A stretch of 32,683 nt of DNA from an uncultured Lachnospiraceae bacterium (GTDB lineage: Bacteria; Bacillota; Clostridia; Lachnospirales; Lachnospiraceae), in NCBI GenBank assembly GCA_905236025.1, contig CAJOOB010000024.1, forward strand, positions 1 to 32,683, read 5' to 3'. The translations under genes were made by a program, and so were the position numbers. Positions 13,776-23,394 of the stretch are shown here, in pieces (position 1 is the stretch's first letter; every line of letters starts with the position of its first letter). Under the pieces are notes generated by a model that searched no databases, was not told the origin of the DNA, and worked only from the letters and a program-made list of their open reading frames with translations.

Positions 13776-14504
13776 CTACTTTGTCTTCTTTGCAGGCTTT
13801 TTGCCAACTGCAACGATTGCAGCAGCGGCTTCTTCGACTGACATGTTCTTCTTAACAGTCTTTGCCTTTGTAGCAGCCTTTTCTTTAGCTGCAACTGTCT
13901 TAGTTGTGGCTTTGGCTTTAACTTCAGTGGCTTTAGCAGTTGCTTTTGCTTTAGTTTCTGTAGCCTTAGCAGTTGCTTTTGTCTTAGTTTCGGCAGCAGT
14001 AGCCTTTGCCTTAGTGGCTGTAGATTTAGCCTTTGCAGCAGCCTTTGTTTTTGTTTCAGCGGCAACTGTCTTTGTTTTTGTAGCTGCCTTAGTGGCAGTT
14101 TTCTTTGCTTTTGCTGCTTTTGTGGTTGCGGTCTTTTTAGCGGTTGTCTTAACCTCTGCTATCTTTTCAGCAGTTTCCTTAGTAGTGGGTGTTTTCTTTG
14201 CTTTTGCAGGGAAAACCAGGCTTAAAAGCTTAACTGTTTCATCATTTCCTGTATGATAAAGGTCAATTGGATTAACCTTTCCCTTTGTTAAGTCAATAAT
14301 CTGTTCTGCAGTTGCAATAATCTTTGCGTCGTTGTCGTAGTATTCATATGGTTCGACATCGACTGTACCGTTTTCAACTTTAATATAGAAAGCGCCGTGG
14401 CCTTCTTCGATAATATCTACCTGATAAGCAACAGTAACATTTTTGTCAACTTTTGCTTTCTTTGCGGCAGTTGTTACTTTTTTTACAATTTCTTCATACG
14501 TCAT
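13776..14504 (-). CDS. SCP2-like domain fused to an alanine/lysine-rich histone H1-like tail
   Basis: A 242-residue protein in two distinct parts. Residues 1-95 resemble an SCP2 sterol-carrier-type lipid-binding domain: GHGAFYIKVENGTVDVEPY, then DAKIIATAEQIIDLTKGKVNPID, then TGNDETVKLLSLVFP. Residues 100-242 are almost wholly Ala, Lys and Thr in irregular repeats such as KATAKATETKAKATAKA, like the tail of histone H1 and bacterial HC1/AlgP-type proteins that bind DNA or polyphosphate. It ends VGKKPAKKTK. There is no signal peptide. The start follows GGAGGTAAGTT. Predicted roles are speculative: a nucleoid, polyphosphate or granule-associated protein. The tail's reverse strand holds a long open frame, which is an artefact of its composition. 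Confidence 0.85.
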   Translation of the reverse strand: MTYEEIVKKVTTAAKKAKVDKNVTVAYQVDIIEEGHGAFYIKVENGTVDVEPYEYYDNDAKIIATAEQIIDLTKGKVNPIDLYHTGNDETVKLLSLVFPAKAKKTPTTKETAEKIAEVKTTAKKTATTKAAKAKKTATKAATKTKTVAAETKTKAAAKAKSTATKAKATAAETKTKATAKATETKAKATAKATEVKAKATTKTVAAKEKAATKAKTVKKNMSVEEAAAAIVAVGKKPAKKTK

Positions 14505-16003: not shown

Positions 16004-16879
16004 ATGGAACGTGTTGATATTGCAATTATCGGCACAGGCCCGGGTGGTCTGGAAGCAGCTATCACAGCAATTAATCGAAATAAGAAAATATTACTTATCG
16101 GAAGTAGGGATTTTAGTGATAAGGTAAGCAAGGCCCATATGATCAAGAATTATCTGGGCTTACCTGATGCTGCCGGTGATGTTTTGGCAAAAAGTTTTAA
16201 AAATCACATTGAAGGTATGGGCGTTGAAATCACAGAAGATAAGATAAATGCGGTGTATGCAATGGGTAAGTATTTCTCTTTGCAGGGCGCAAATGAAACA
16301 TATGAAGCTACAACCGTTATTTTGGCAACCGGAGTTGTAATGGCAAAGCCGTATCCGGGTGAAAATGAATTCCTTGGAAGGGGCGTAAGTTATTGCGCGA
16401 CGTGTGATGCACCTTTATACAAAGGAAAAACGGTTGCAGTAATTGCGGCAACAAAAAAAGAAGAGGCGGAAGCGGATTTCCTTACGGAAGTATGCGAAAA
16501 TGTCCTTTATTTCCCTCTTTATAAGGAAACACCTTCTGTGTGTGACAAGGTTACGGTTATTAACGAAAAGCCTTTGGAAATTAAGGGAGATATGAAGGCA
16601 CGCACGCTTGTAACAAGCGAGGGTGAGCATAATGTTGATTGTATATTTGTGCTTCGTGATGCAATTTCACCGGGACAGCTGGTTCCGGGGCTTGCAACGG
16701 AAGGGGCACATGTTAAGACAGACAGGCAAATGACAACAAATATACCGGGTTGCTTTGTGTGCGGCGATTTGGCGGGTAAGCCTTATCAGTACATAAAGGC
16801 AGCAGGTGAAGGAAATGTAGCGGCGCTTTCAGCGGTTGACTACATTGCGGAACTAAAAAAAGGAGAGCAGCAGGCTTAA
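16004..16879 (+). CDS. thioredoxin reductase-like flavoprotein lacking the NADPH motif
   Basis: A 291-residue low-molecular-weight thioredoxin reductase-type flavoenzyme. FAD binding is seen at the start (IAIIGTGPGGLEAAI) and at the end (GCFVCGDLAGKPYQYIKAAGEG). The redox pair is CATC in VSYCATCDAP. Where normal enzymes have GxGxxA and HRRxxxR for NADPH, this protein reads VAVIAATKKEEAEADFL and has no HRR motif. That matches what is known of the ferredoxin-dependent flavin thioredoxin reductases of clostridia, which do not use pyridine nucleotides. The thioredoxin gene starts 14 bases after its stop, so thioredoxin is its probable substrate. The start follows GGGAAGGAGATTAA. Confidence 0.88.
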   Translation: MERVDIAIIGTGPGGLEAAITAINRNKKILLIGSRDFSDKVSKAHMIKNYLGLPDAAGDVLAKSFKNHIEGMGVEITEDKINAVYAMGKYFSLQGANETYEATTVILATGVVMAKPYPGENEFLGRGVSYCATCDAPLYKGKTVAVIAATKKEEAEADFLTEVCENVLYFPLYKETPSVCDKVTVINEKPLEIKGDMKARTLVTSEGEHNVDCIFVLRDAISPGQLVPGLATEGAHVKTDRQMTTNIPGCFVCGDLAGKPYQYIKAAGEGNVAALSAVDYIAELKKGEQQA

Positions 16880-16893
16880 AAAAGGAGAAAAAT

Positions 16894-17202
16894 ATGGTAA
16901 AAAACGTAAACACTAATGAATTTGATGAAGTAAGAAATGCAGATATAGCGGTTGTAGATTTTTATGCAGACTGGTGCGGCCCTTGTAAGATGGTTGGCCC
17001 TGTGGTTGAAGAAATCTCAAACGAGGTTACGGACGTTAACTTTTATAAAGTAAACGTTGACAATAACCATGATTTGGCAACAGAGTTTGGCATCATGTCA
17101 ATTCCTGCAATCTTCGTATTTAAGAAGGGCGTAAAAGTTGCTGAGCAGATTGGGTTTGCACCAAAGGATGCGCTTCTTGCAATGATTAATGCGGCAAAAT
17201 AA
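16894..17202 (+). CDS. trxA: thioredoxin
   Basis: A 102-residue cytosolic dithiol oxidoreductase with the classic active site FYADWCGPCKM (Cys28, Cys31) and the cis-proline in IMSIPAIFVF. The length is normal for the family. It follows the reductase-like gene by 14 bases with AAAGGAGAAAA as ribosome site, so the two are almost certainly co-transcribed and form one redox couple. The last 17 bases of the gene, stop included, are repeated just downstream. Confidence 0.97.
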   Translation: MVKNVNTNEFDEVRNADIAVVDFYADWCGPCKMVGPVVEEISNEVTDVNFYKVNVDNNHDLATEFGIMSIPAIFVFKKGVKVAEQIGFAPKDALLAMINAAK

Positions 17203-19227: not shown

Positions 19228-19569
19228 TTAGAAATTTCTGCCGTTCCAGCCCCAATCGTTTGTGCCAAGATATGAAACGTAAACATTCTTTGCCGGGATA
19301 TCCAGTTCTTCTTCAAAGATATTGCAGATGGCCGCCGTGAACTTGTCACATTCACTTGATTTTGGCTGACCAAAGACTCTTACCGCAACGTAAGCTCCCT
19401 TTTCAAGCTTGTTACCTGCCATATAAAGGCAGTATTCGTCTTCAAATCCAACCATAAGAAAAGATTCAGGCTTTCCGATTATTGAAATTTCTTTACCCAA
19501 ACGGGCTTTGATGGCTTCTCTTTTTTCGTCAGAAACCTTGAGTGTGATTTTTGAATCTATAAAAGGCAT
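19228..19569 (-). CDS. macrophage migration inhibitory factor-like (phenylpyruvate tautomerase) protein
   Basis: A 113-residue member of the MIF/tautomerase superfamily. Proline 2 (MPFIDSK), the catalytic N-terminal base after methionine removal, is present, and the C-terminal GWNGRNF matches the MIF end. The middle FLMVGFED---LYMAG--LEKGAYVAVRVFG fits the beta-alpha-beta repeat of the trimer. Bacterial members can tautomerise phenylpyruvate in vitro; the real substrate is usually not known. I chose the ATG at 19569, preceded by TAGGAGGAATT, because a longer frame would bury the catalytic proline. It stands alone between a terminator and the divergent rlmD-type gene. Confidence 0.93.
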   Translation of the reverse strand: MPFIDSKITLKVSDEKREAIKARLGKEISIIGKPESFLMVGFEDEYCLYMAGNKLEKGAYVAVRVFGQPKSSECDKFTAAICNIFEEELDIPAKNVYVSYLGTNDWGWNGRNF

Positions 19570-19714
19570 AATTCCTCCTAAATGTTGCAAACTTTGGTTA
19601 CACGGATATATTAAGGCAAAACTTTGCCAAAAGTCAATAAATCTAAAGGATTTCCTTGTTATAATTTGCTTAAACTGATATTATAAAATGGTAAAAAAGA
19701 TTTAGAGGTATATC

Positions 19715-22150: not shown

Positions 22151-22253
22151 AGTCGACACAGTAATGTGGACAAATCGCATTTAATAAGTTAAAATGTGTG
22201 AGAATTTTTTAAAGTAAACGATATTTAAAAAATTATAAAATAAAGTGATCATT

Positions 22254-23394
22254 ATGGAAGAAATATCATACGAACAATTAAATAAAATGCCGAAAAGTTC
22301 TTATATATTAGTGGATATCAGAGATGAGGCCTTAACAACATACGGAATGATTCCTGGAGCAGTGAACATATGCGAAAAAGACCTTGATGGTGCCAATGGT
22401 CTTGAGTTACTTCCGCCTGATAAGAAAGTGATTTTTTACTGTGAAGTGGGTCATAAATCAAGGCTTATTGACGAAAAACTGTCGAAGTTTTCCGGAAGAG
22501 ACTGTTACAGTCTTGCCGAAGGTTATATTGGATATGTAAGAGCCTGTATGGCTACTGAGGATTTGAAAAAGGAAAAGAGAAAAAAGGCAGAAGAAAGTAT
22601 ACAAAAAAAATTTCATAAGCGGCTTTTCTCTCCTTTTGCCAAAGCGTGCAAAACATATCAACTTATCAGTGAAAACGATCATATTGCGGTATGTATCTCC
22701 GGAGGGAAGGATTCCGTGCTCATGGCCAAACTTTTTCAAGAGATACAGCGTCACAGACAGATGAATTTCCGACTGACTTTTTTGGTGATGAATCCGGGAT
22801 ATAATGAGGAAAATCTTCAACTTATCAAGAGTAATGCGAGTGCTTTGGGAATACCGATTACCGTATTTGAAAGTACCATTTTTGATGCGGTTGATACGGT
22901 TGAAAAGAACCCTTGTTATTTGTGCGCCAGAATGAGGAGAGGTCATCTATACAATAAAGCAAAAGAATTAGGATGTAACAAAATTGCGCTGGGACATCAT
23001 TATGATGATGTGATTGAGACTATATTGATGGGGATGTTACATGGCGCTCAGATTCAGACGATGATGCCGAAACTCCACAGTACTAACTATGAGGGAATGG
23101 AATTGATAAGGCCGCTTTATCTGGTAAGAGAGCGATATATGTGCATGGAGAGATTATAATGATCTGCATTTTCTTCAGTGCGCATGTCATTTTACCGAAA
23201 CTTGCAGTGTATGTCATATTGATGGAACCACAGCGTCAAAGCGTCTTGAGACAAAGAGGTTAATTGCTGAGTTAAAAAAGACAAATCCGTATGTGGAATC
23301 AAATATTTTCAGAAGTATGGAAAATGTAAATCTTGATACGGTTATTGAATATAAAAAAGATGGTATACGTCACAATTTTTTGGATGAGTACTGA
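22254..23394 (+). pseudogene. rhodanese-TtcA-like fusion gene with a +1 frameshift
   Basis: The frame from 22254 codes for an N-terminal rhodanese domain (about 1-100, active-site Cys in FYCEVGHKS), followed by a PP-loop ATPase domain of the TtcA/TilS type with SGGKDS at 149-154 and CYLCARMRRG. TtcA proteins thiolate cytidine 32 in tRNA using an iron-sulfur cluster. The frame ends early at 23159. Dropping one base at about 23133 (a C after codon 293, GAG) restores reading for 86 more codons, including HFTETCSVCH, ENVNLDTVIEYKK and the end RHNFLDEY, which is typical of this family. The intact protein would have 379 residues. Either the gene is recently broken or the base is a sequencing error. 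Confidence 0.87.

Follow-up and report, generated by a model that had tools for sequence, protein, structure and literature searches.

What supplies electrons to a thioredoxin reductase that has no recognizable site for NADPH? This question is raised by a gene pair in the window, a 32,683-nucleotide stretch of DNA from an uncultured Lachnospiraceae bacterium, in which a trxB-like gene is followed by a thioredoxin gene (Table 1). A preliminary description, made from the sequence letters, had proposed a system linked to ferredoxin, leaving open whether the reductase is a ferredoxin-dependent flavin thioredoxin reductase (FFTR) or belongs to the related group of diflavin disulfide oxidoreductases (DDOR). 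Sequence scores, a maximum-likelihood (ML) tree, the predicted fold and domain arrangement, and the operon context support its membership in the clostridial FFTR family, which resolves that choice at the family level.

Table 1. Coordinates of the gene pair and of the diagnostic sites in trxB, numbered from the first nucleotide of the window.
Feature	Position	Strand	Evidence
trxB, FFTR-family protein, 291 aa	16004..16879	+	332 bits and 52% identity to C. acetobutylicum FFTR 6GNC; tree; NADPH motifs absent
CATC redox disulfide, residues 131-134 (C131/C134)	16394..16405	+	translation; invariant in 32-sequence alignment A1
Degenerate VAVIAATKKEEAEA at the second nucleotide site, the position of GxGxxA in NADPH-type TrxB	16433..16474	+	alignment with E. 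coli TrxB
trxA, thioredoxin with WCGPC, 102 aa, presumed same-operon partner	16894..17202	+	TIGR01068 over cut-off; PDB matches

The trxB reading frame is genuine, with an ATG start, the sequence AGGAGA shortly upstream and no internal stops in the translation. Its product carries FAD motifs near the N-terminus (GTGPGG) and the C-terminus (GDLAG), and GTGPGG and the CATC pair are part of the invariant core of alignment A1. A GRG thioredoxin-binding motif precedes CATC. When the protein is aligned with E. coli TrxB, the GGGNTA site of the latter falls within VAVIAATKKEEAEA, and its HRRDGFR site is opposite PLYK plus a gap. Translation and alignment therefore confirm the earlier claim that the FAD motifs and CATC are kept and that GxGxxA and HRRxxxR are both gone. 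Nearly all of the NADPH-clade proteins among the relatives keep both NADPH motifs, and all 90 proteins of the group that score above 200 bits (the window protein included) are missing both. Because the loss extends to all 90, it reflects neither chance nor a damaged NADPH site in this one protein, and is therefore old and conserved.

In a search of all PDB sequences, the best matches of the window protein were 6gnc (331.8 bits), 6gna (307.7 bits) and 6gnd (303.2 bits). The first two are titled as ferredoxin-flavin thioredoxin reductases of C. acetobutylicum, and the third is the complex with thioredoxin. The next match after these clostridial FFTRs was the NADPH TrxB of Methanosarcina at 116 bits, with E. 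coli TrxB at 87 bits and the Gloeobacter FFTR at 84 bits. A scan of one genome per species across 84,980 species found 152 stretches that encode relatives; the best 80 of these share 50-68% identity with the window protein, and almost all of them belong to Clostridia, the few exceptions being MAGs with the labels Acholeplasmatales, Erysipelotrichaceae or Coriobacteriales. The ML tree comprised 72 proteins (model LG+C20+F+G4). In it the window protein shares a clade with the two C. acetobutylicum FFTRs, 6gnc and 6gna (97/97), which is nested in a larger FFTR-like clade (100/99), and E. coli TrxB and the other NADPH enzymes cluster separately (100/99). Placement among those NADPH enzymes, named in the preliminary description as a result that would refute its reading, did not occur. 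For the Gloeobacter FFTR and DDOR (GvFFTR and GvDDOR), the comparison with the window protein is based on PDB score and fold rather than on this tree.

Several further proteins stood out. Five distant FFTR-like proteins scoring 212-236 bits (L045, 4077-4937; L047, 3943-4809; L048, 3980-4846; L050, 3892-4833; L052, 4008-4892) have CATC, are devoid of the NADPH motifs and are basal to the clostridial FFTR clade; no thioredoxin gene was found on their flanks of about 4 kb. A second TrxB-like lineage (L041, 2228-3100; L042, 3978-4844; L043, 3998-4879) has CAVC as its redox pair, GxGEYAxHE in place of GxGxxA and TNGKE in place of HRR, so that the NADPH arginine motif is seemingly lost. These three proteins form their own clade beside the NADPH enzymes (100/99); ArsR-like regulators lie near two of the three, and no adjoining thioredoxin gene was seen. 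In one further TrxB-like protein (L040, 506-1411, from relative G016), NAAK replaces the redox CxxC and the HRR motif is missing.

The structure prediction suggested in the preliminary description was carried out with AlphaFold2 (pLDDT 85, pTM 0.67, with residues 46-52 poor), and the predicted model shows the open domain arrangement of FFTRs. Foldseek aligned it to 6gnc with a TM of 0.91 and, despite only 24% sequence identity, to the Gloeobacter FFTR (5j60/6xtf) with a TM of 0.80. Matches to NADPH enzymes mostly had a TM of about 0.54 with an rmsd of 10-15 A, because the domain arrangement of those enzymes differs. Since the alignment used for the prediction consisted of FFTR relatives, the model backs the placement but does not stand apart from the sequence evidence.

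The neighbouring gene fits the same family. As the preliminary description had noted, trxA adjoins trxB; it starts 14 bp 3' of the trxB stop and encodes a WCGPC thioredoxin that scores 114.5 bits against TIGR01068 (cut-off 96.8). Its closest PDB entry is 6gn9, and 6gnd_B, the thioredoxin bound to the FFTR in the C. acetobutylicum complex, is among its top four. A same-strand thioredoxin gene lies no more than 200 bp away in 62 of the 90 FFTR-group loci, in an order that is mostly trxB-trxA in the Lachnospiraceae/Oscillospiraceae-like clade and mostly trxA-trxB in Clostridium and Tepidibacter. Elsewhere in the window are a minus-strand gene (13776-14504) whose product has an SCP2 domain and, after it, a long histone H1-like tail rich in alanine, lysine and threonine, another (19228-19590) for a small MIF/tautomerase-family protein with PF01187 over cut-off, and a plus-strand gene (22245-23159) in which a rhodanese domain is fused to a TtcA-like PP-loop ATPase domain, the reading frame stopping shortly after the PP-loop.

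Loss of the NADPH motifs with retention of CxxC is common to FFTRs and DDORs (as defined in PMC9025218), and would also be seen if the window protein were DDOR-like, with a second FAD substituting for NADPH and a target other than thioredoxin. That reading is disfavoured because GvDDOR (5ODE) is not in the 48 PDB chains listed at E<=1e-10 and is likewise missing from the best 60 profile matches and the top 50 fold matches, where FFTRs are at the top; because the GR/KG thioredoxin-binding motif, absent in DDORs (PMC9025218), is present here as GRG; and because a thioredoxin gene is adjacent. DDORs are furthermore compact (PMC8469568), unlike the predicted fold, and we regard a DDOR-like enzyme as exceedingly unlikely. 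The NADPH-type reductases share the superfamily as well, and one of them might have retained NAD(P)H use behind a drifted cofactor site. The best NCBIfam match of the window protein is in fact TIGR01292, but at 171 bits it is far under the cut-off of 343 that an NADPH-dependent TrxB would exceed while also carrying GxGxxA and HRRxxxR. Such drift is very unlikely in view of the position of the protein outside the NADPH clade, a predicted domain arrangement unlike that of the NADPH enzymes, and a motif loss that is ancient and shared by the whole group. Both of these readings were rejected.

A different kind of alternative accepts the FFTR family and changes the donor, which might be another low-potential carrier, e.g. 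flavodoxin, rather than ferredoxin. The trxB-trxA operon contains no donor gene, as this alternative would allow, but the FAD potential of the best-studied FFTR, about -448 mV, matches that enzyme to ferredoxin (PMC12796991), and a classical small 2[4Fe-4S] ferredoxin is encoded in the window's genome; a donor other than ferredoxin would thus seem improbable.

The gene pair is, with high probability, a clostridial-type FFTR-thioredoxin operon with a proposed route from ferredoxin through FAD and disulfide to thioredoxin. The analysis establishes the family placement, the missing NADPH site and the trxB-trxA pairing. By analogy with the tested members of the family (PMC12796991, PMC8469568), ferredoxin would take the place of NADPH as electron donor, and the window enzyme would work as a homodimer with swinging domains. 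Reduced low-potential ferredoxin would deliver two one-electron transfers to the FAD of the homodimer, the disulfide domain would swing inward, and the reduced FAD would then reduce the C131-C134 disulfide. The resulting dithiol would swing outward and pass the electrons to the adjacent thioredoxin by reducing its WCGPC disulfide, and that thioredoxin could in turn serve the protein disulfides of the cell. The C-terminal tryptophan tail of the cyanobacterial FFTR is missing in clostridial FFTRs (PMC8469568), so details of the mechanism as measured in the Gloeobacter FFTR may not hold here.

Does the bacterium have any other thioredoxin reductase? Its genome, which is 85% complete, yielded no second TrxB, no Fe-S ferredoxin:thioredoxin reductase (PF02943) and, with the query used, no second thioredoxin. 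A second TIGR01292 match (C71, 496 aa) was rejected as a TrxB, as it follows a 280-aa NfnA-like reading frame and resembles NfnB/GltD. The window FFTR therefore appears to be the sole thioredoxin reductase. Besides the ferredoxin, the genome encodes pyruvate:ferredoxin oxidoreductase (PFOR), [FeFe] hydrogenase domains and an NfnAB-like pair, which could be makers or users of reduced ferredoxin. Among 298 Lachnospiraceae genomes from 281 genera (all at least 90% complete except the window's own), 42 carry an FFTR. No NADPH-type TrxB was found in 26 of these 42 compared to 17 of the 256 non-carriers, its status being assigned by score rather than by reading each sequence (absent when the best TIGR01292 E-value was worse than 1e-85 or there was no match); the association has a Fisher p of about 1e-15 without phylogenetic correction. 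These counts suggest that FFTR has probably replaced NADPH TrxB entirely here and in a minority of the family, leaving the whole thioredoxin system run by ferredoxin. If so, thiol repair in these anaerobes would be tied directly to fermentation through ferredoxin, and the pattern would offer a testable refinement of a published survey of Clostridia in which both reductases mostly coexist (PMC10880999).

The window trxB is an ordinary member of a published enzyme family of anaerobes, to which it adds another clostridial lineage; our literature search found no paper linking FFTR with Lachnospiraceae. Its resemblance to the DDOR of Gloeobacter violaceus (5ODE) is that of a related flavin disulfide enzyme also missing the NADPH site, but 5ODE is not among the matches listed, and DDORs are compact and have no thioredoxin-binding motif. 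The FFTR of the same organism (5J60, 6XTF) has likewise lost the NADPH site and has the open domain arrangement found in the predicted model, but it shares only 24% identity with the window protein, and the tail whose tryptophan stacks on FAD in that enzyme is absent here. The operon type has already been described in C. difficile, where TrxA1, a thioredoxin, and TrxB1, an FFTR without GxGxxA and HRRxxxR, are encoded in a two-gene operon (PMC10880999). C. difficile differs in having two additional NADPH-type TrxBs (PMC10880999); no TrxB of that type was found in the 85% complete genome of the window. The closest likeness is to the C. acetobutylicum FFTRs (6GNC and 6GNA, with 6GND as the complex), which share about 50% full-length identity, CATC and the absence of the NADPH motifs, and of which 6GNC matches the predicted fold at the TM given above. 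In these enzymes the flavin is not covered by a C-terminal tail (PMC8469568), and the window protein ends at the same place; its gene order is trxB-trxA, whereas most of the Clostridium relatives examined have trxA-trxB.
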